Shown: positions 4,091-21,201 of the stretch, piece after piece | Position numbering within the stretch: the stretch's first letter is position 1 | Layout: each line of letters opens with the position of its first letter | Assembly: GCA_019113165.1 (NCBI GenBank) | Contig: DXHV01000077.1 | Coordinates: forward strand, 46,777-110,776 | Source of the DNA: Candidatus Desulfovibrio intestinipullorum | Lineage (GTDB): Bacteria; Desulfobacterota; Desulfovibrionia; Desulfovibrionales; Desulfovibrionaceae | Direction: 5' to 3' | Length of the DNA: 64,000 nucleotides | Translations under genes and position numbers: made by a program | The notes under the pieces: model-generated | Seen by the model: only the letters and a program-made list of their open reading frames with translations | Database searches by the model: none | What the model was told of the DNA's origin: nothing

Positions 4091-4685
4091 AGCCGTTCCT
4101 TGAGAGCCTGCCGTGCAGGCTTGCCTCGTGATCTTGGTGGATTGGGCTTGAAGAACTGTCCAGGCGGACAGACAGGCAGGACACAATGCATCCATGCAAG
4201 AGAGGTTCCAGCCTGATGCAGTTCGGGCATGCAAAACCTGTACATTGCAAGGGAATGGCCCTGTCTCGTACTGCGAGTTGGCAAGCTCCTATCACAAGGC
4301 AGCCGCTCATGGGAAGGGGACAATACAAGTCTTTGAAAACAACAATGAAAAATTTTACACTCCTGCCTGGTCAGGACTGGAGGCCGAACACCGAGCAGCT
4401 GCCGGGAGCTGGATTTTTTCCCTGTCCTGTGCCAATGTTTTGAGCAGGGAATCATAATCCAGTCAAAACTTTCCGAATATTTACGGCAGGAGAGACACAG
4501 CAGGAACAGGGTGCCTGGCACCCGTCTTCTGGAATCCGTGTGCATCTGGCTCCATCGCTTCTGCCCCTTCTGGTCTTCGGAAGAGCCCCGGCAGAAGGGA
4601 GGCAGGCAGTTCCTTTGCCCTTTTAGCCTTGAGATACAGACACAAGGAGCACTGCGCTCTCCAAACAGAAACAGGAGAATATCTT

Positions 4686-8753: not shown

Positions 8754-8830
8754 GTGTCCGTGGCTCAGCTGGATAGAGCGTTGGCCTCCGGAGCCGAAGA
8801 TCGGGAGTTCGAATCTCCCCGGGCACACCA
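8754..8830 (+). tRNA. tRNA-Arg (anticodon CCG)
   Basis: Acceptor GTGTCCG/CGGGCAC, anticodon loop CTCCGGA, GGGAGTTCGAATCTCCC T arm, encoded CCA. Confidence 0.94.
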
Positions 8831-8905: not shown

Positions 8906-9730
8906 TCAGGCTTCCATGATGCGAATGTTGTCGAGCATGCTTCTTGTTGTCGGAACGAACTGATGCACGGAACTTCCGAGAACAGAAGAAAGCTCGGCAG
9001 CGGTCCGGGTGACTTCCTGTATGAGCTGTGCCGAAGACTGCTCATTGATGCGCACTGTAGGCACAGAGCAGCCGATGGTGGCAACAAGGGAATTGGTGTA
9101 GTTGAAAATGGGAGCAGCAACACATCGGACACCGTGGAAAATTTCCTCGCAGTCAAAGGCTATTCCTTCCCGGCGGACCTGCGCGAGCTCATCGCAGAAG
9201 CGATTGACTGTTGCTACAGGCAGCTGTGGGTTTACTGTCCGCAATTCATTGAGGTAGTTGAGCAGCTCTCTTTCGCTCAGAAAGGCGCAGTAGATCTTGC
9301 CCGAAGCGGAAGGAAAGATGGGGAAGGACGATCCGATAATGGAGTCAAGGCGCAGGCTTTGCCAGGATACCTGCTGATCGATGACGACCATGTCCAGGTT
9401 CTGGGCCACGCAGAGGTTGACAGTTTCGTTGACCTTTTCCATCAGTTTGCGGCAGATGGGGCGTGCCTTGTCCGCAAGATTGTTGTTGGAGGCAATGCGC
9501 TGGCCAATCTTGTAAAACTTGAGTGTCAGGCTGTAGGCCCCTCCCCTGTTTTCATGCGAGACATAACCGAGGCTGCACAGCGTGAGCAGAATTCTTTGCA
9601 GTGTGCCCTTGGGCAGGCCACTGGCCTTGGTCAGCTCCTGCAGTTCCCACTTGGCCTGATGAGACATGAGTTCGACTATCCGAAAAGCTTTTCCCAGGAC
9701 ACCGATATTGTAGGCTTGTGGTATTTCCAT
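8906..9730 (-). CDS. IclR family transcriptional regulator
   Basis: N-terminal wHTH (LGKAFRIVELMSHQAKWELQELTKASGLPKGTLQRILLTL) and IclR effector domain (GSSFPIFPSASGKIYCAFL). Confidence 0.9.
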   Translation of the reverse strand: MEIPQAYNIGVLGKAFRIVELMSHQAKWELQELTKASGLPKGTLQRILLTLCSLGYVSHENRGGAYSLTLKFYKIGQRIASNNNLADKARPICRKLMEKVNETVNLCVAQNLDMVVIDQQVSWQSLRLDSIIGSSFPIFPSASGKIYCAFLSERELLNYLNELRTVNPQLPVATVNRFCDELAQVRREGIAFDCEEIFHGVRCVAAPIFNYTNSLVATIGCSVPTVRINEQSSAQLIQEVTRTAAELSSVLGSSVHQFVPTTRSMLDNIRIMEA

Positions 9731-10011
9731 ATGTAATCCTTGATTTTTCCTTGAGTTTTTTGTGCGGTATACAGAAGAACTTAAAGTAACTGTTTGGTAT
9801 CATATAAAAATTCACTGAGCGCTGTATGCCTGAATCACAAAATGTTGTCAAAAGGCAGGTTTGTCTGCGGGAGAAGTTTTTCTAAATGCCAATAAAAAAA
9901 AGCAGGTCAGAGGGACCCGCTTTTTTTCATATTCATCCTCTTGATGATGTATGAGCATTCGAGAAGAGCACAATATGTTTTTTATAACAGGATATAAAAT
10001 TTTGCGGATCC

Positions 10012-10290
10012 ATGAACTACCTCGCACTTACGTGCGAGGTTTCACGGGGACGCTCCCCCGTTTTTAGCAATTCTCCGAGATCGAAACATTGGTGCAGATC
10101 TCGGATTACTGCGGGCGTGTCCACAACGCCCCATCGAGTTCGAGCAGTTCCGAACCACTCGTCCCCGAATTCTTTTCAGCCTATATCTAGAGGCAAATGC
10201 GGCCGAATGTCAATTCAGTCCCGCTATCCATCCTCACGCTTACGCGTTGGGAATACCGCGGATTTTGTTAAAATATCAAATTTTAGGCAG
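10012..10290 (-). mobile_element. Probable IS200/IS605 (IS1341-type) right-end remnant / omega-RNA-like region, no tnpB
   Basis: Minus strand ends ...ACGGGGGAGCGTCCCCGTGAAACCTCGCACGTAAGTGCGAGGTAGTTCATGG: terminal hairpin plus GTAGTTCA as at many IS605/TnpB right ends. Perfect stems at 10020-10039 (8 bp), 10044-10061 (6 bp), 10074-10105 (9 bp), 10113-10131 (6 bp). No transposase ORF. Confidence 0.55.
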
Positions 10291-10580
10291 GTAACTTCTC
10301 CCGTTTATTAATAGTAATTTAAATTATGTTTCTTTTATAGAAAAGTTTTTTTATGTATGTCAATACACTTATTTGTATAAAAATATTTTTTAAAAAAATG
10401 AAAGAAATTTTTTTAATGACAGAAAATATTTTCATACTATAGATCAAACTTTCTGTTCTTTTCTATGGGAGAAAGGCAGACTGACTACATACGTTGGCTG
10501 ACGCACAGGCTCTGCCTCTTACAGGCAGGATACTACTTAATACAGGCAGGGCCCGTGAACTGTCAGCTCTGCTCCTGAGC

Positions 10581-12137
10581 CTAATTCTTCTTTTGTGTCT
10601 TGTAGCGTGCAGTCAGTATCAAGCCTTCCTTGACGATACACCAGCACAGGATGGCTGTCAGAATCATCATCAGCACCCCGCCGAAGACGAACATGCCTCG
10701 CAGGGCTGAAATGCCGCACAGGGTGATGACAGCCAGGGCAACACCACCCATGTTGCCACCCCACAGGACCTTCAGGAATTTGGGTGCTTCTTCCTCTGCC
10801 GAAATGCCACGGGTGGAAATGGTTGCCAGAACAGAACTCATGGGATCCACCAGGGTGACAAAGGATATCAGGGTGACAACAATAAAGAAGGCTATGAGAA
10901 TGCCGCTGAAGGGGAAACGCTGCAAGATGCCTATGACCGTGGACTCAAGGCCCTGTGTCTGCACAAAGGTCCAGACATCGACTATATCCTTCCACTGGTA
11001 ATAGATGGCAAGGCTTCCGAAGGTATTGATCCACAGGAAAACGAACATGGAAGGAGCAAGGATATTCATAAGCAGGAACTGACGCACCGTGCGCCCCTTG
11101 CCAAGCCGTGCCAGGTACAGGCCGATGGGCGGTCCATAGGCAAAAAAGGCCCCCATATAGACAATGAGCCAGGAGTCCGCCCATCTGTCCTTCAGAAATT
11201 CCGTGCTGACAAGTGTGCTGTGACGGATAAAGTTCGTGAGCATGTAGCCGAAGGACTCTGTCCCCATATTCAGGATGAACAGGGTAGGTCCGCAGAAAAA
11301 CACGTAGAACATCAGGATAAAGAACATTCTTGTGTTCTGTGCGGCCAGAAAGTTCATGCCTTTTTTCAGACCGGTTGTGGAGGAAGTGACAAAGAAGACT
11401 GTGGAGACGACTGCCACACAGGCGTTCATGGCAAAGGTGCGCTCCAGGCCGGTCAGATAGGACAGACAGCTGGAGACCATCATGATGAGCGCACCGATGC
11501 TGCTTATGACGGTACAGCAGATGGAGAAGAGACAGGAGGCGTGAATGATGGTGCGGAACAGGGGACGATTCCTGGCGGGGAGACAGGGGGCAAGCCCGCT
11601 CATGATGGAGAGCGGCATTTTTTCATTGAAGGCCATGAGGGCAAAGGCAACACCGCATATGGCGTAAATGCAGTACTGGGCAATGCTCCAGTGCATGGCT
11701 GACTGCGAGATGGCAAAGAGGGCCGCTTCGTGACTCTGAGGCTCAATACCGAGGTTCGTCGGAGGCTTCATGAGGTGGTAGATAGGCTCACCGATACCCC
11801 AGAACAGGATACCTATGCCTATGCCGGAACACAGGGAGATGGCGAACCATCTGAAGAAGGTAAAATCCGGTTTTGCATCAGGTCCGCCAATGCGGATGTC
11901 TCCTATGGGAGAGCAGATGATGCCGAAGGTGAAAAGCATGACCAGGAAGGCAACAAAGACCGAGGCCCAGCCCAGCTTGTCCACAATCTGGGCCTGCAGG
12001 GTATCCATGAAGTTGATGAAGCCTTCGGGAAACACCAGAGAACTGATGATGAAAGCAAAAACCGAACAAAATCCGATGAGAAAGGGGATGGTATCGAGAC
12101 TTTTGGACCTGGGAGGCAAGTGTAAGTTCTTTTCCAT
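10581..12137 (-). CDS. BCCT family transporter
   Basis: FFRWFAISLCSGIGIGILFWGIGEPIYHLMKPP, AMHWSIAQYCIYAICGVAFALMAFN: BCCT core motif; about 12 TM segments. Confidence 0.93.
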   Translation of the reverse strand: MEKNLHLPPRSKSLDTIPFLIGFCSVFAFIISSLVFPEGFINFMDTLQAQIVDKLGWASVFVAFLVMLFTFGIICSPIGDIRIGGPDAKPDFTFFRWFAISLCSGIGIGILFWGIGEPIYHLMKPPTNLGIEPQSHEAALFAISQSAMHWSIAQYCIYAICGVAFALMAFNEKMPLSIMSGLAPCLPARNRPLFRTIIHASCLFSICCTVISSIGALIMMVSSCLSYLTGLERTFAMNACVAVVSTVFFVTSSTTGLKKGMNFLAAQNTRMFFILMFYVFFCGPTLFILNMGTESFGYMLTNFIRHSTLVSTEFLKDRWADSWLIVYMGAFFAYGPPIGLYLARLGKGRTVRQFLLMNILAPSMFVFLWINTFGSLAIYYQWKDIVDVWTFVQTQGLESTVIGILQRFPFSGILIAFFIVVTLISFVTLVDPMSSVLATISTRGISAEEEAPKFLKVLWGGNMGGVALAVITLCGISALRGMFVFGGVLMMILTAILCWCIVKEGLILTARYKTQKKN

Positions 12138-12506: not shown

Positions 12507-12884
12507 TTATTCCTTGTAGCAGACGGCGTCCATTTCGAGCAGGCAGCCGTGGGCAATATTGCTCACTTCCACGCAGACTCTGGCCGGACGGTGTGTCCCC
12601 ATGAAGTTGGCGTAGACTTCATTGAAGGCATCGAAGTCATCCAGGTTGGTGATGAAGACCGTGGTCTTGGCGATGTCGGTAATGGCAAGGCCGGCTTCAT
12701 CCAGGACAGCCTTGAGGTTGGCCAGAGTCTGGACAGCCTGTTCCTTCATGTTTGTGCCAATGACTTCGCCCGTCACGGGATGGAAGGGCACCTGGCCGCA
12801 CAGATAGTAGGTGGAACCGGCCTGGACGCAGTGGGAGTAGGGGCCGACAGAGGCACAGGCTTTGGAAGCATGGATGAACTTCAT
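12507..12884 (-). CDS. RidA family enamine/imine deaminase
   Basis: MKFIHASKACASVGPYSHCVQAGSTYYLCGQVPFHPVTGEVIG...HRPARVCVEVSNIAHGCLLEMDAVCYKE. Confidence 0.92.
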   Translation of the reverse strand: MKFIHASKACASVGPYSHCVQAGSTYYLCGQVPFHPVTGEVIGTNMKEQAVQTLANLKAVLDEAGLAITDIAKTTVFITNLDDFDAFNEVYANFMGTHRPARVCVEVSNIAHGCLLEMDAVCYKE

Positions 12885-13051: not shown

Positions 13052-14374
13052 CTAGATTTCTGTCTTTGCGTTGAATTCTTCCCACATGAGACGCACGGTG
13101 GCACCGATGGTGACCAGGGGTTCCGGCGGCAGATGGCTGGGGGTAGCAATACGGCGCAGGAAGCGAAGTTCCTCACTGTCTATGCCATTGATCCATTCGG
13201 CAACATAATGGCCCATCAGGCAGGTCTTGGCTACGCCGGCGCCTTCGCCACTTGCAGAAGCGTACACGCTGGGATGCTTCTGCACCATGAGCGGGCGGAA
13301 GTTCATGGTCATGTTGATCATGCCGCCATAGATGAATTCGAAGTTGACGTGCTTGATTTCGGGGAAGCGGTTTTCAAAGGCCCTGCGCAGCTTGGGAATG
13401 GCGCGGCGGATACGCTGGAAGGACGTGGTGCGGTGGGTGCCGTAGCTGAAGCCGTTGCGGACAAAGATGCGGTTGTCGCGGGTGAAGCGCACGGTTGTAC
13501 CGGCAGGATGACCGGCTGTGCAGCCCCAGGGCTTCACATCCTTGAAGTAGATCATTTCGTCGTCATTGAGCTGACGGGTGAAGGCTCCGTAGGAGAGCAC
13601 GGGGCAGAAGGTATTCTTGACAATGCCAAACTCTTCAATGAAGGGGCCGCCGGTCACGACGACGCTCTTGGCAGAGAGCTGCTTGCCGTTGAGCAGGGTG
13701 ACGCGGGCACGGGCACCCTCCTCTATGCGCATGACCGGGCAGTCTTCGAAGACGTCCACGTTCTCGGGCAGCACCGTGAACAGGCCGCGCAGCACGTCGG
13801 CAGGGTTCACAAGCAGCGTGCCGGGGGTGTACAGAGCCTTCTTGTAGTAGCGGGTGCCAAGGCGCTTGGCCAGCTCTTCACCCTCGTAGATCTCGTAGTT
13901 CACATTCATGTGCTGCAGTTCTTCGGCTTCCACGTCGATGAGCTTGAAGCTCTTGGTTTCGGCACAGCAGAGATACTTGCCGCAGGGATCCCAGTCGACG
14001 GAAATGCCGGAGTCTTCAATGGCCTTCTTCATGCGCCCAATGATGTAGGTATTGAGCTTGTAGTACATGAAGTTGTCGTCGAAGGTGGAATTGCCCTGGT
14101 CGCCAAAGTTGTGCGGCACGTCGATGATGAAGCCGGCATTCTTGCCACTGTCGCCGTTGCCGATTTTGATGGCTTCGAAGACGGCAATGCGGGCATCGGG
14201 CTGCAGTTCGGCCAGACGGCTTGCACATCCGTAGCCGCCGTAACCGGCGCCCACAATGATGTAGTCATACTCGTTGGCAATCTTGTCATGGCTCTTGAAG
14301 AGATGATCCTTGAAGGAGGACATTTCCAGCCAGCTCTGACCTGTGGTTGTGGGGAAACGCTTGACTTCACGCAT
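13052..14374 (-). CDS. FAD-dependent oxidoreductase, DAO family (amine/amino acid)
   Basis: YDYIIVGAGYGGYGCASRLAEL (dinucleotide-binding), GNGDSGKNAGFIIDVPHN, C-terminal FRPLMVQKHPSVYASASGEGAGVAKTCLMGHYVAEWI. Confidence 0.88.
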   Translation of the reverse strand: MREVKRFPTTTGQSWLEMSSFKDHLFKSHDKIANEYDYIIVGAGYGGYGCASRLAELQPDARIAVFEAIKIGNGDSGKNAGFIIDVPHNFGDQGNSTFDDNFMYYKLNTYIIGRMKKAIEDSGISVDWDPCGKYLCCAETKSFKLIDVEAEELQHMNVNYEIYEGEELAKRLGTRYYKKALYTPGTLLVNPADVLRGLFTVLPENVDVFEDCPVMRIEEGARARVTLLNGKQLSAKSVVVTGGPFIEEFGIVKNTFCPVLSYGAFTRQLNDDEMIYFKDVKPWGCTAGHPAGTTVRFTRDNRIFVRNGFSYGTHRTTSFQRIRRAIPKLRRAFENRFPEIKHVNFEFIYGGMINMTMNFRPLMVQKHPSVYASASGEGAGVAKTCLMGHYVAEWINGIDSEELRFLRRIATPSHLPPEPLVTIGATVRLMWEEFNAKTEI

Positions 14375-14602: not shown

Positions 14603-16753
14603 TCAGTTGTGACGCAGGACAATGCGAGCGTCGGCAATGGCAAGACCCTTTTCCCATGCAAAGACAGGATTGAGGTCCACCTCTGCAATGTCGGAGAGTT
14701 CGCTCACCATGTAGGAAACCGTGCACACGGCCTGGGCCAAGGCATCAAGGTCGCAGGGCCTGGCGCCACGTGCTCCCTGGAGCAGGGGCAGCCCCTTGAT
14801 TTCGCGAATCATTCTCTGGCAGGCAGGGAGGTTGACCGGAGCAACGCGGAAGGACACGTCCTTGAGAACTTCCACGAAGATGCCGCCGAGGCCAAACATC
14901 ACTGTCGGACCGAAGGTGGTGTCATGGCTGGAGCCAATGATGCATTCCACGCCGGACTTGAGCATGGGGGTGAGCATGACGCCGAAGATGTCGGCTGTGC
15001 TCTTGTAGTTGCGACCATTGCTGACCAGACGGTCATAGGCCTCGCGAGCAGCCTGGGCAGAATCGATGTTCAGGGCGACGCCGCCGGCATCTGTCTTGTG
15101 CAGGATGTCGGGAGAGACAATCTTCATGACTGCCTTGCCGCCAATCTTTTCCCAGAGGGCTGCTGCCTCATCGGCAGAGGTGGCAAGATAGTGGTCGGGC
15201 AGAGGCATGCCGTAGGCTTTCAGAATCTCGCGGGCTTCGGTCTCGACGAGATTGACGCGGCCCTGGGCACGAACATTGGCGAAGATGGCCTGGGCCTTTT
15301 CAAGGCGGTCTGCAGGCAGGGCAGGAGCCTGGGAATCCATTTCTTCCCTGAGGATGCTGCGTCTTGTGCTGTATTCGACGAGCATGCCCATGGTGCGGAC
15401 GGCTTCGTCAATGGCGCCGAAAACAGGCACGCCGTTTTCGCTCAGGTACTTGAGACATTCAGGCTGCTGGGCCTGGTAGATGGAGTGCATGACAACGGGC
15501 TTGCTGCTCTTGTTCACGCGGGCGGCCATGCTCCTGGCAACGTCCATTTCCAGAACACGGAATTCCTCGGACAGGTCGGCGTAGCCACCATAGAGACCGA
15601 CGATGACAACGCCGTCCACATCGGGGTCATTGAGCAGGATGTCCAGGCAGCGATCGAAGACCCACATGTCGCCTTCGGGCGTACCGGCCAGGTCCACGGG
15701 ATTCTTGATGGGGCAGTGCGGCTTGAGGACAGCGCGCAGCTTTTCCTGAGTGGCGTCGCTCAGCACGGGCGCTTCGAGACCGTAGGTTTCGCAGAAGTCC
15801 GTGGCCATGACGCCGTGGCCTCCACCGTCGGTGAGAATGGCAATGCGCTTGCCAGTGGCAGGCTTGCACTTGGAGAAGGCTTCGGCGGCATCAAGGAGGT
15901 CGTTGGGCGTGTTAACGCGGACAACGCCGGCCTGGGCCAGGGCGGCATCAAAGATTTTTTCACTGCCGGCCAGGGAGCCTGTATGAGAGGCTGCGGCACG
16001 GGCACCGGCGGCGCTGCGGCCGATCTTGATGGCAACGATGGGACGCTGCAGGGAGGTTCTGCGGGCTGCTTCAAGGAATTTGCGGCCATCTTCTTCATTT
16101 TCGACACGCAGGCCTTCCATGTACAGAAGCAGAACCTTGGTGTGGGTGTCGTTTTCTATGTAGCGAACGAAGTCATTGAAGCGGAGATCCATCTGGTTGC
16201 CGATGGTTGCCCAGCAGCTGTAGCCCAGGTTGCGCTTTTTGGCATTGAAGTTGATGTCGATGCCGAAGTTGCCGCTCTGCAGGACCAGGCTCATGGGACC
16301 GGGAGCAAGGTCGATGATGCTGGCGTTGAGGCTGACAGCGGAGCTGTACATGCCCATGCAGTTGGGACCCATGATGCGCATGTTGCCGCGGCGGGCAATC
16401 TCGAGCATCTTGCGTTCGATTTCCTTGCCTTCCTCGCCTGTTTCACCAAAGCCCGTGGAGACGACAATGCCTGTCTTGACGCCTTTTTCCACGCACTGTT
16501 CGATGATGGGAAGAATGTATTTGGGAGCAATGGCGATGATGGCCAGATCCACCTCTCCGGGAACGGAGAGAATGTCGGGATAGGTCGGATAGCCAAGAAT
16601 TTGTCCGCCAGAGCGGGAAACCAGAAAGATGTCACCCTGGAACTTGTTGTCTATCAGACTTTTGGCAGTCCAGTAGCCGTACTTCTTTGTATCGGAAGAA
16701 GCACCGATAAGTGCAACGCTTTTGGGCTGGAAAAGGGGAAGAAGGTCGGACAT
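14603..16753 (-). CDS. Acyl-CoA synthetase, ADP-forming (fused alpha-beta)
   Basis: LLPLFQPKSVALIGASSDTKKYGYW; GPNCMGMY; ILTDGGGHGVMATDFCE; C-terminal ATP-grasp GKAVMKIVSPDILHKTDAGGVALNI. ATG at 16753. Confidence 0.92.
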   Translation of the reverse strand: MSDLLPLFQPKSVALIGASSDTKKYGYWTAKSLIDNKFQGDIFLVSRSGGQILGYPTYPDILSVPGEVDLAIIAIAPKYILPIIEQCVEKGVKTGIVVSTGFGETGEEGKEIERKMLEIARRGNMRIMGPNCMGMYSSAVSLNASIIDLAPGPMSLVLQSGNFGIDINFNAKKRNLGYSCWATIGNQMDLRFNDFVRYIENDTHTKVLLLYMEGLRVENEEDGRKFLEAARRTSLQRPIVAIKIGRSAAGARAAASHTGSLAGSEKIFDAALAQAGVVRVNTPNDLLDAAEAFSKCKPATGKRIAILTDGGGHGVMATDFCETYGLEAPVLSDATQEKLRAVLKPHCPIKNPVDLAGTPEGDMWVFDRCLDILLNDPDVDGVVIVGLYGGYADLSEEFRVLEMDVARSMAARVNKSSKPVVMHSIYQAQQPECLKYLSENGVPVFGAIDEAVRTMGMLVEYSTRRSILREEMDSQAPALPADRLEKAQAIFANVRAQGRVNLVETEAREILKAYGMPLPDHYLATSADEAAALWEKIGGKAVMKIVSPDILHKTDAGGVALNIDSAQAAREAYDRLVSNGRNYKSTADIFGVMLTPMLKSGVECIIGSSHDTTFGPTVMFGLGGIFVEVLKDVSFRVAPVNLPACQRMIREIKGLPLLQGARGARPCDLDALAQAVCTVSYMVSELSDIAEVDLNPVFAWEKGLAIADARIVLRHN

Positions 16754-16810
16754 GGATCTCTCCGTTTGAGGGGTCTGGCGGATTTTGTGCAAAATCCGCC
16801 AGAAGGCAGG

Positions 16811-17028: not shown

Positions 17029-17574
17029 TTATTCCCCCTTGCCTGCTTCAAAACCGGCATTGAAGGCCTTGAGATTCATTTCCAGCAGCTCGGGCTTTTT
17101 CTTGCCCATGGTTTCCTCAAGCACAGCGGCAATGGTCTCGTACTTGAGGAGGCCTGTTTTGGCCAGAACGGCACCGAGCATGACCATGTTGACACTGCGT
17201 ACGGAACCAGCCTGCACGGCCATTTCCGAGGCGGGGATCATCAGCTGGGTAAATCCCTCTGCAGTTTCAGGTTCTTCCACCAGAGAAGAGTTGGTGAACA
17301 GAATGCCGCCAGGGGCAACTCCGTGGAAGCACTGATGGTAGATGGATTTGCTCAGGGCCACGGCAATATTGGCGTCGTTCTCGACAAGAGGGCTGCCAAT
17401 GGGCTCGTCGGCCACGATGATATTGGCCGTGGAATCGCCGCCACGCTGCTCAATGCCATAGGTCTGTGTCATGACGACCTTCAGATTTTCCTTCATGGCA
17501 CCCTGACACACGAGCTTGGCCATCAGTGCTGAACCCTGCCCGCCCGAACCAGAAAACATACATTTGACCAACAT
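17029..17574 (-). CDS. 2-oxoacid:ferredoxin oxidoreductase gamma subunit
   Basis: KCMFSGSGGQGSALMAKLVCQGAM...TQTYGIEQRGGDSTANIIVADEPIGSP. Confidence 0.93.
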   Translation of the reverse strand: MLVKCMFSGSGGQGSALMAKLVCQGAMKENLKVVMTQTYGIEQRGGDSTANIIVADEPIGSPLVENDANIAVALSKSIYHQCFHGVAPGGILFTNSSLVEEPETAEGFTQLMIPASEMAVQAGSVRSVNMVMLGAVLAKTGLLKYETIAAVLEETMGKKKPELLEMNLKAFNAGFEAGKGE

Positions 17575-17580
17575 GTGTGC

Positions 17581-18327
17581 TTACTCCATTTCGTTTTTGA
17601 AAACCTGGGGCTTGAAATAGGTGATCATTTTTTCGTTACACCACTTGTAGGCGTCCCTGACGCTCATTTTCAAACCTGTGGGGCAGGGAACGATAACTTC
17701 CACAAAGGAGTATCCGAGACCCTTGACTTGGCATTCAAAGGCTTTCTTGATGCTCTTCTTGGCACTCATGATGTGCTTGGCCGTCGCCACGGTTTCCCTG
17801 GCAAGATATTTGACACCGGGCATTTCGCGCATCATTTCGGGAACCAGCAGGGGGTAGCCCTGCCAGGTGACGTCACGGCCCTTCACTGTGGTGGCAGTGA
17901 TCTGGCCAGCCAGTGTGGTCGGAGACATCTGACCACCAGTCATGCCGAAGACCGTATTGTTGACCATGATGGTTGTGATAGGCAGGCCCTTGTTGGCAGC
18001 GTGCAGAAGATCGCCCAGACCGATGGCGCAGGTGTCGCCGTCACCGGCATAGGTGAACACGATATTGTCGGGACGGCAGAGCTTGTAGCCGATGGCAAAG
18101 GACGGAGAACGTCCGTGAGTGGCCTCAATGGCATCGATGTCCATGTAGTGATGGGAAAAGCCGCCACAACCGATGCCGACGATGGCGATGGCCCGTTCAC
18201 GGATGCCCAGTTCTTCAATGGCTTCAGCGACAAGGCGAGTCACAACGCCGTGTCCGCACCCCGGACAGTAACTGGTCAGTTTGTCCAGGTTCAGGGTCTT
18301 GCCGTATTTTGCGCTGAGATTCTGCAT
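17581..18327 (-). CDS. 2-oxoacid:ferredoxin oxidoreductase beta (TPP-binding) subunit
   Basis: YCPGCGHGVVTRLVAEAI...THGRSPSFAIGYKLCRPDNIVFTYAGDGDTCAIGLGDLLHAANKGLPITTIMVNNTVFGMTGGQMSPTT. Confidence 0.94.
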   Translation of the reverse strand: MQNLSAKYGKTLNLDKLTSYCPGCGHGVVTRLVAEAIEELGIRERAIAIVGIGCGGFSHHYMDIDAIEATHGRSPSFAIGYKLCRPDNIVFTYAGDGDTCAIGLGDLLHAANKGLPITTIMVNNTVFGMTGGQMSPTTLAGQITATTVKGRDVTWQGYPLLVPEMMREMPGVKYLARETVATAKHIMSAKKSIKKAFECQVKGLGYSFVEVIVPCPTGLKMSVRDAYKWCNEKMITYFKPQVFKNEME

Positions 18328-18331
18328 GAGA

Positions 18332-19402
18332 TTACTCCCCTAAGAGACGGTTCACTTCAGCGGTCATTTCCGCAAGGGTGTACATGGGCATGTCGCCACC
18401 GGTCTTGCCGAAGAAGTGCACGGGCACGCGGCCGTTCACAGCGAGACGCACATCATCAACCATCTGGCCCAAATTCATTTCCACGACGAGAATCTTCTTG
18501 ACGCTGGCAGGAAGTGTTTCAAAGGCCTTTTCAGGGAAGGGCCACAGGGTGATGGGACGGATGCTGCCCACTTTCTTCCCCTGGGCACGGAGATTCTTCA
18601 CAAGGTCCTTGCACATGCGGCCATGAATGCCAAAGGCAACGACGATGAGTTCCGCATCTTCAGTGGAGTTTTCCTGCCACTTCTGTTCATTGGCCTTGAT
18701 AAGGGCGTATTTCGCACGCAGCTTCTCGTTCATCCTGTAGCCGTCTTCATGCGAGTAGCTGCCAGTAATCAGGGCGCGCTTGGGGTGGTCGCCTGTGCCT
18801 GTATAGGCCCAGGAAGAGGTGTCGTACTCTGCGGAATAGTCGTGGTAGTCCGGAAGGTTGACCGTCTCGGTTGTCTGGGCAGTGACACCGTCCATAACAA
18901 AGAGAACGGGGGTTCTGTAGGTATAGGCCAGACGAATGCCTTCGGGAACAAGAGAAGCGATTTCCTGGCCGTCCGAGGGAGCAAGGACGGGTGTGCGGTA
19001 GTCGCCGTGGCCGCCACCGCGGGTCGCCATGTAGTAGTCGCTCTGGGCACCCAGGATGTCGCCGTCACCAGGACCGACACGCATGGAATCGATCATAAGA
19101 CAGGGCAGTTCTGCACCGGCCATGAAGGAGATGGCTTCCTGCATGAGAGTCATGCCGGGGCCGGAGCTCGAGGTCGCGCAGAGCACGCCTGTACAGGCGG
19201 CACCGGCAAGGGCGCTCGAAACGGCCAGTTCGCTTTCCATCTGCATCATCTTGCCGTCGTACTGCGGAAGAATGACAGCCATTCGCTTCATGACGTCCGT
19301 TGCGGGAGTGATAGGGTAGGCAAAATGGAATTTGACCCCACAACGTGCCAGACTTTCAGCGAAAGTCTCCGTGTTTTTCAAAAACATGGTTTGCTGAGCC
19401 AT
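18332..19402 (-). CDS. 2-oxoacid:ferredoxin oxidoreductase alpha subunit
   Basis: FHFAYPITPATDVMKRMA...MESELAVSSALAGAACTGVLCATSSSGPGMTLMQEAISFMAGAELPCL. Confidence 0.94.
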   Translation of the reverse strand: MAQQTMFLKNTETFAESLARCGVKFHFAYPITPATDVMKRMAVILPQYDGKMMQMESELAVSSALAGAACTGVLCATSSSGPGMTLMQEAISFMAGAELPCLMIDSMRVGPGDGDILGAQSDYYMATRGGGHGDYRTPVLAPSDGQEIASLVPEGIRLAYTYRTPVLFVMDGVTAQTTETVNLPDYHDYSAEYDTSSWAYTGTGDHPKRALITGSYSHEDGYRMNEKLRAKYALIKANEQKWQENSTEDAELIVVAFGIHGRMCKDLVKNLRAQGKKVGSIRPITLWPFPEKAFETLPASVKKILVVEMNLGQMVDDVRLAVNGRVPVHFFGKTGGDMPMYTLAEMTAEVNRLLGE

Positions 19403-19480: not shown

Positions 19481-19507
19481 ATACCGTATAACGGTATTTC
19501 ATACCGT
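19481..19507. promoter_or_regulatory. Candidate operator ATACCG-TATAA-CGGTAT plus an extra ATACCGT half-site
   Basis: Palindrome 19481-19497, third half-site 19501-19507; upstream of the oxidoreductase alpha gene. Confidence 0.7.
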
Positions 19508-19820
19508 TAAATTCAGGCTATGTTACGAGAGAGTTCCTGTCAAGGTATTTTGTGGAAAAAATTATGAAAAAAAGGAAAAATTTTTAAAAAATTATAAAAT
19601 ATAATATGTTAGACATGGAAAAATTCCCCATGAGCGTATGAACTGCCAGCGCGTCACAAGCCGTCCTGAACGGTAATGGGAAATATTTTTTTTAGGTAAC
19701 TATTTGTATATATTTATAAAAATTTTAGATAAGGGAAAAACAGAAGCTGAGTCCCTAATCTCAAAAAAGCATTGACATATATCGAATTAAAGAATTAAAA
19801 CACGGATAAACTGATATTTT

Positions 19821-19837
19821 ATACCGAAATACGGTAT
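19821..19837. promoter_or_regulatory. Candidate operator ATACCG-AAATA-CGGTAT upstream of MFS gene
   Basis: Same arms and spacing as 19481-19497. Confidence 0.7.
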
Positions 19838-19884: not shown

Positions 19885-21201
19885 ATGACCCAGGCAGTAT
19901 CCATGAATTTTGAAGATGCTCCCTTCTCACCATTCCACAAAAAAATCACAGCCGGCACGTTCATGGGCCTGATCAGCGACGGCTACACCCTGGGCATTGT
20001 CGGCATAGCGCTCAGCTATGCCCAGGAGCCTCTGGGACTGAGCAGTTTCTGGATGGGACTCATTGGCTCCATGGCCATGTTCGGCATTTTCTTCGGCAGC
20101 CTCATCACCGGCATCATTACGGACAGGATAGGCCGCAAGCTGCTCTATCCCCTGTTCATGGCCCTCACGGTCATTGTCTCCGTGTGGATGTATTTTCTGT
20201 CGGACCCGCTCTACATCACTGTTGCCCGGTTCATTCTGGGCATGCTCATCGGTTCGGATTATGCCGTGGGCATTTCCTATCTGAGCGAATGGACCCCCGC
20301 GAAGAACAGGGAAGGCATTCTCGCCTGGCTGCTCACCGTCTGGACCATCGGCTATACTCTGTCCTACATTGCCGGCTTCTTCATGGACGGCGTCGTGGCC
20401 GCCTTTGGCAATGATGGCTGGCGCGTGGTTCTCTGCACGTCGGCCATTCCCGCCCTCATTGCGCTCGTCATCCGTCACGGAGCCCCAGAATCCGCCCTCT
20501 GGCTCATTGCCAAGGAACGCAAGGATGAAGCCCTGACCGTGATTCACAAGTATCTGGGCACGCAGTACGGTCTGCCGTCCGCTCCGCTGGAAAAGGCTGC
20601 CTCCTCTTCCTGGTTTGCCCTCTTTGCCCCCAAGCAGTGGCGCAAGACCATCGTTTCCGGCGTCTTTTTCTTTGCGCAGGTCCTGCCCTTCTTCTCTATC
20701 AGCATCTTCCTGCCCATCGTCCTCACCAATCTGAAGATCGAGAACCCCAATGCCTCCGGCGTGCTCTACAATGTCTTCACCATGGTTGGGGTTCTTGTGG
20801 GCATGTGGCTCTACAGAGTCATGACGCGCCGCGCCTTCCTGCTCTGGACCTTCTATCTTTCCGCAGCCCTGCTCACCTTCATGATCCTCTGGACTTCCAT
20901 GCCGCCTGTTGTCGCCCTGGTCCTGGTCACGCTTCTTGCCCTGGTTCTGGCCATCTCCATTGTCCCCGAGTTCTCGTATCCTGCCGAGCTCTTCCCCACG
21001 GAACTGCGCGGATCCGGTGTTGGTCTGACCGTGGCCATAAGCCGCTTTGGTGCTGGCGGCGGTACCTTCCTTCTGCCCATCATCAGTGAAAGCTACGGCA
21101 TTCATGCCGCACTGTGGGTCTGTGTGGGAACCCTGCTCTTTGGCGGCATTATCTGTCAGATGTGGGCACCGGAGACATCTGGCAGAGGAAAGAAGAAGTA
21201 A
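19885..21201 (+). CDS. MFS transporter
   Basis: GTFMGLISDGYTLGIVGIAL, GSLITGIITDRIGRKLLYPLF, PAELFPTELRGSGVGLTVAISRFGA. Confidence 0.92.
   Translation: MTQAVSMNFEDAPFSPFHKKITAGTFMGLISDGYTLGIVGIALSYAQEPLGLSSFWMGLIGSMAMFGIFFGSLITGIITDRIGRKLLYPLFMALTVIVSVWMYFLSDPLYITVARFILGMLIGSDYAVGISYLSEWTPAKNREGILAWLLTVWTIGYTLSYIAGFFMDGVVAAFGNDGWRVVLCTSAIPALIALVIRHGAPESALWLIAKERKDEALTVIHKYLGTQYGLPSAPLEKAASSSWFALFAPKQWRKTIVSGVFFFAQVLPFFSISIFLPIVLTNLKIENPNASGVLYNVFTMVGVLVGMWLYRVMTRRAFLLWTFYLSAALLTFMILWTSMPPVVALVLVTLLALVLAISIVPEFSYPAELFPTELRGSGVGLTVAISRFGAGGGTFLLPIISESYGIHAALWVCVGTLLFGGIICQMWAPETSGRGKKK

Follow-up and report, generated by a model that had tools for sequence, protein, structure and literature searches.

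The two inverted repeats on either side of the divergent intergenic region between a korA-like gene and an MFS transporter gene are, judging by their sequence and conservation, almost certainly conserved three-box operators of an already known IclR-family kind, and any novelty beyond that kind lies in the regulon and in how it evolved. It is very likely that they serve a local regulon, in which the nearby IclR-family protein would bind both three-box operators at the start of transcription and repress the operon and the MFS gene until it is released. The window is the whole 64,000-nucleotide stretch of Candidatus Desulfovibrio intestinipullorum DNA that was analysed; its source genome, G000, is 2.77 Mb in size and 98% complete. 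The sites, their conservation, layout and place relative to the promoters, their genome-wide specificity and the presence of a single IclR were all computed. The features are collected in Table 1.

Table 1. Coordinates of the putative operators, predicted promoters and genes (window positions unless another contig is named).
Feature	Position	Strand	Details
IclR-family regulator, proposed ligand of the operators	8906-9730	-	recognition helix PKGTLQR; Pfam HTH_IclR, IclR_C
BCCT family transporter	10581-12137	-	
RidA-type enamine/imine deaminase	12507-12884	-	
FAD-dependent (DAO family) oxidoreductase	13052-14374	-	
Acyl-CoA ligase related to ADP-forming acetate--CoA ligase	14603-16792	-	
2-oxoacid:ferredoxin oxidoreductase gamma subunit (korC)	17029-17574	-	
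2-oxoacid:ferredoxin oxidoreductase beta subunit (korB)	17581-18327	-	
korA-like 2-oxoacid:ferredoxin oxidoreductase alpha subunit	18332-19402	-	first gene of operon
Putative korA operator, three boxes	19481-19506	-	CGGTAT 19506-19501, ATACCG 19497-19492, CGGTAT 19486-19481
Predicted korA promoter	19515-19543	-	-35 TTGACA 19543-19538, 17-bp spacer, -10 TAGCCT 19520-19515
Predicted MFS promoter	19772-19801	+	-35 TTGACA 19772-19777, -10 poorly defined, about 19795-19801
Putative MFS operator	19812-19837	+	degenerate TGATAT 19812-19817, then ATACCG-AAATA-CGGTAT 19821-19837
MFS transporter (aromatic acid:H+ / sugar porter-like), divergent target	19885-21201	+	
UbiX-family gene	G000:C9:4016-4597 (L042)		operator about 4617-4642

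The original prediction placed two ATACCG-N5-CGGTAT palindromes, ATACCGTATAACGGTAT at 19481-19497 and ATACCGAAATACGGTAT at 19821-19837, and an additional half-site, ATACCGT, at 19501-19507, and all three are found at these positions. The window contains just these two exact matches, compared to 0.42 expected from shuffled sequences even when two mismatches are allowed, and the same two places are the sole exact matches in all 2,765,059 bases of the genome. The motif is hence not one that recurs at random genome-wide, a concern raised with the original prediction. Allowing one mismatch adds three sites in G000, whereas a reversed control pattern gives one match. Among the three, the three-box layout described below occurs only at the site on contig C9, upstream of the UbiX-family gene; the C39 and C68 sites were not retained, as their sequences did not show this layout.

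Although the palindromes are real sites, the functional unit is larger than had been proposed, a 26-bp element in which three boxes alternate in direction with 6-3-6-5-6 spacing (yGGTAy nnn rTACCr nnnnn yGGTAy). The additional half-site is part of it: the korA element, read on the minus strand from 19506 to 19481, is CGGTAT-GAA-ATACCG-TTATA-CGGTAT. The MFS site also has a third box, albeit a degenerate one (TGATAT-TTT-ATACCG-AAATA-CGGTAT, 19812-19837), with a single core mismatch in box 1. Its palindrome is kept in the closest relative, G307, and it is on the exactness of the palindrome and this conservation that we regard it as a putative operator.

We fetched 26 stretches carrying orthologous loci from relatives (L007 and L038 are one contig, and L006 appears from its coordinates to be contig G309:C114). 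With the window included, scoring was possible for 26 korA upstream regions of sufficient length, 24 of which reached a three-box score of at least 13 out of 15, a value attained by 0.19% of dinucleotide shuffles. The conservation in orthologous intergenic regions that had been put forward as a check is thus found. The spacing at korA is exact in the window and in most relatives, and in many loci two copies of the element lie about 55-76 bp apart. The element also precedes the divergent MFS gene in the window, L006, L018 and L020, an MFS gene with its own promoter in L041, which is not a divergent case, and the divergent BCCT gene in L023, L027, L033, L037 and others. It is absent upstream of korB, the ligase gene, ridA and iclR in the scored loci, and an MFS gene located after ridA within the operon has no element in the loci compared.

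A scan for terminators flags 19497-19481 on the minus strand, where a stem of 7 pairs (3 G-C) is followed by GTTTGATTTT, and one could suppose that the palindromes are RNA hairpins or chance inverted repeats. Such an explanation is extremely improbable. A hairpin needs neither a conserved third box nor fixed 6-3-6-5-6 spacing, a terminator at this place would stop the korA operon itself, and both exact copies in the genome fall in one intergenic region. With a 7-bp stem holding 3 G-C pairs and a position before korA rather than after a gene, the sequence was rejected as an intrinsic terminator.

The specificity of the putative operators was assessed with a sequence-only model, R1, constructed from 37 sites of relatives with the window left out. 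In G000, its first match was the korA operator (E 0.0034) and its second the C9 site (E 0.083), beyond which it returned just the korA operator on the opposite strand (E 3); these E-values are only partly independent, since the window and the relatives had both been inspected before the template for the sites was made. The window MFS site, with its degenerate first box, was not reported by this three-box model at E<=10. R1 matched in 21 of the 21 operon-bearing relatives searched, with the best match inside the fetched operon region in 20 and at the BCCT locus in the remaining one, G178. Across 79 genomes of the genus, R1 matched at E<0.02 in 8, and precisely these 8 and no others possess a korA ortholog; random agreement of two such sets has a probability of 4e-11, with the qualification that some of these genomes had supplied sites to the model.

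The original prediction overlooked the position of the sites relative to the promoters. Promoters were inferred from sequence, with the pattern TTGACR-N17-TAnnnT used for the korA loci. The korA operator begins 8 bp after the predicted -10 box, and the MFS operator lies about 10 bp downstream of its predicted promoter. The predicted korA promoter is conserved in G307, L018, L006 and most loci, and a comparison of the window with G307 shows that the operators and TTGACA-N17-TAnnnT upstream of korA are kept while the remaining spacer has diverged. In 21 of 26 loci such a promoter ends 3-11 bp before a three-box site, compared to 0.02% of shuffles. An element at this distance would span about +1 to +26, a geometry in which repressors typically block RNA polymerase. 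Hence, the element probably sits over the predicted transcription start as a repressor site would.

The same sites could alternatively be bound by IclR acting as an activator, like PcaU and PobR. Three-box operators are known for PcaU, PobR and HmgR, among others (survey of Suvorova and Gelfand, 2021; PMC8222616), and the -10 boxes predicted here (TAGCCT, TAGTGT) are weak, a frequent feature of promoters under activation. However, the operator follows the predicted -10 box at a distance of 3-11 bp in 21 of 26 loci, an unusual position for an activator, and we consider this mode of action unlikely.

The architecture of the element agrees with what that survey (PMC8222616) describes. Its set comprises 181 groups, and three-box IclR-family operators are given for 32 orthologous groups. 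As in those operators, the three half-sites alternate in direction; two of them form a 17-bp group 1 pair with a centre of three A/T, the other pair has the closer group 2 arrangement, and there is a linked IclR gene with catabolic and transport targets. The difference is that the third half-site position is A/T-symmetric here (TACC/GGTA), whereas the published form is TTYC/GRAA; GGAAC half-site variants do occur in relatives. Against the consensus WTTYCRYW3RYGRAAW quoted there, the korA palindrome has 2 mismatches, which fall at the symmetric third position of each arm, and the MFS palindrome has 3; GTACCACAATGTGGAAC of relatives has 1 mismatch to GTTYCRYW3RYGRAAC. A group 1 inner palindrome, an alternating third box, a cognate IclR and orthologous conservation, by which a three-box operator is recognised, were all found. 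The PcaU and PobR operators of Acinetobacter likewise consist of a palindrome and an additional external half-site, and for PcaU the third box is reported to be needed for binding (cited in PMC8222616). These regulators control beta-ketoadipate pathway genes through a GTTCG consensus, whereas here the operon is of an amino- or oxo-acid type, the consensus is rTACC and, unlike in their operators, the predicted site lies over the operon start, which suggests repression.

The candidate regulator has an N-terminal HTH_IclR domain (PF09339, 2.8e-09) and a C-terminal IclR_C domain (PF01614, 4.2e-37), and is the one IclR_C protein encoded in G000. Its best NCBIfam match is BhcR (NF045644) at 149 bits, far under the cut-off of 350 bits, and the pathway differs, so that it was rejected as a BhcR equivalog. 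In the high-quality relatives that were checked, an IclR gene is located close to the operon or to its BCCT gene (in G212 just outside the stretch first fetched), and it is the only regulator gene consistently seen with the cluster. It was not found in two incomplete genomes that carry the site, G306 (78% complete) and G311 (77% complete). A tRNA gene (8754-8827) lies just downstream of iclR in the window.

An unlinked regulator of another palindrome-binding HTH family could instead use the sites while IclR controls something else. In favour of this, iclR itself has no full operator and is separated in the window from the BCCT gene by about 850 bp (9731-10580). The CGGTAT half-site claimed upstream of it is present at 9765-9770, but the full element is absent, and autoregulation through the three-box element was dismissed, as neither the window nor any other locus has a site upstream of iclR. 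Nevertheless, the alternating boxes and their spacings match the published IclR operator type, IclR alone accompanies the cluster consistently and no second IclR is encoded in the genome; a different regulator is thus quite improbable. The sequence around 10010-10250, within the iclR-BCCT gap, is rich in hairpins; an Rfam search matched no family to them and returned no RNA element here beyond a tRNA.

Further support for IclR comes from its recognition helix. Loci with a PKGTLQR helix have TACC in the middle box almost throughout, and loci with PKTTVHR often have TAAC. The covariation is partial, with exceptions in L022, L036, L037, L041 and G045, and most of the PKTTVHR loci belong to a single clade. 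Both types occur in genomes G168 and G178, where korA with its TAAC boxes is accompanied by a PKTTVHR gene, and BCCT with its TACC box by a PKGTLQR gene that is adjoined by a second PKTTVHR gene. These last two form tandem IclR genes with different recognition helices next to BCCT (L096 and L100), and the second IclR copy in G168 is reported with one internal TGA. An extra IclR match (46%) in L020/L144/L105 was left out of the helix comparison; its HTH columns contain BCCT-like sequence rather than an HTH, since the frame that was extracted begins within the adjacent BCCT gene. The proposal that one regulator, IclR, controls both units is supported by operator architecture, the sole IclR_C protein, linkage and the partial helix covariation, and its assignment to both sites may be called well supported at the level of sequence.

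We infer IclR binding, repression and an inducer as follows. Together the two sites would form the operators of a single local regulon, and each closely follows a predicted TTGACA-type promoter. IclR would bind them, most likely either as a dimer of dimers or as two neighbouring dimers sharing the middle box. Both the korABC-acyl-CoA ligase-DAO-RidA(-BCCT) operon and the divergent MFS gene would then stay repressed until IclR is released by the substrate or an early intermediate. In G000, ubiX, on another contig, would be the third target.

This third target also escaped the original prediction. The C9 site reads TGATAC-ATA-ATACCG-TATTT-TGGTAT, and the promoter layout ahead of it is that of korA, TTGACT-N17-TAGTCT followed by 9 bp to the element. 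Displaced ubiX genes carry the element and this layout in both G000 and G098, and in G098 the two are kept despite changed sequence. In the relatives L006 and L018, ubiX is inside the cluster, in the iclR-BCCT gap; it stands beside IclR in L020, L023, L029, L038 and L039, and between RidA and MFS in L028, L032 and L034-L037. The G000 gene hence looks like a displaced member of the regulon. In a phylogenetic tree, the displaced genes group with operon copies of G309 and G163 and with another G309 copy (moderate support, 87/98). In G311 (L102:8686-10590), frames of an ISL3-type transposase lie between the three-box operator and ubiX, and the element is kept. That the same operator still precedes the gene outside the cluster is good evidence of its co-regulation.

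The genes on the minus strand follow the order korA, korB, korC, acyl-CoA ligase, DAO, RidA, BCCT and IclR, with MFS divergent. From their protein families, a plausible pathway would convert an amino compound to an imine (DAO), a 2-oxo acid (RidA), an acyl-CoA (oxidoreductase) and finally an acid with ATP (ligase), and the MFS protein is plausibly an importer. A solved relative of the DAO protein detectable by sequence was not found, and the papers searched contained nothing on this operon in Desulfovibrio. A korABC-RidA-MFS cluster in G045 (L094) has two perfect three-box operators; no DAO ortholog was found there, so operon content varies.

UbiD (PF01977) was not found in G000, at 98% completeness, or in G280, and is present elsewhere in the genome in other relatives. 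The absence of UbiD from these two genomes and the operator that ubiX keeps outside the cluster suggest, as a speculative and rather doubtful reading, that this uncharacterised pathway of BCCT/MFS uptake, DAO, RidA, oxidoreductase and ligase needs a UbiX-type flavin prenyltransferase without UbiD. If so, prenylated flavin, or a new UbiX activity, would serve another enzyme, for which the DAO-family oxidoreductase is a possible candidate.

In summary, these findings assign a candidate regulator-operator pair and a regulon to a catabolic cluster of Desulfovibrionaceae that had been unstudied. With dozens of naturally occurring variants of the operator and two helix types that occur side by side in single genomes (G168 and G178), the published idea that IclR-family proteins dimerise in two modes on three-box sites can be tested directly. 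Furthermore, the regulon links a UbiX-type enzyme to a catabolic pathway.
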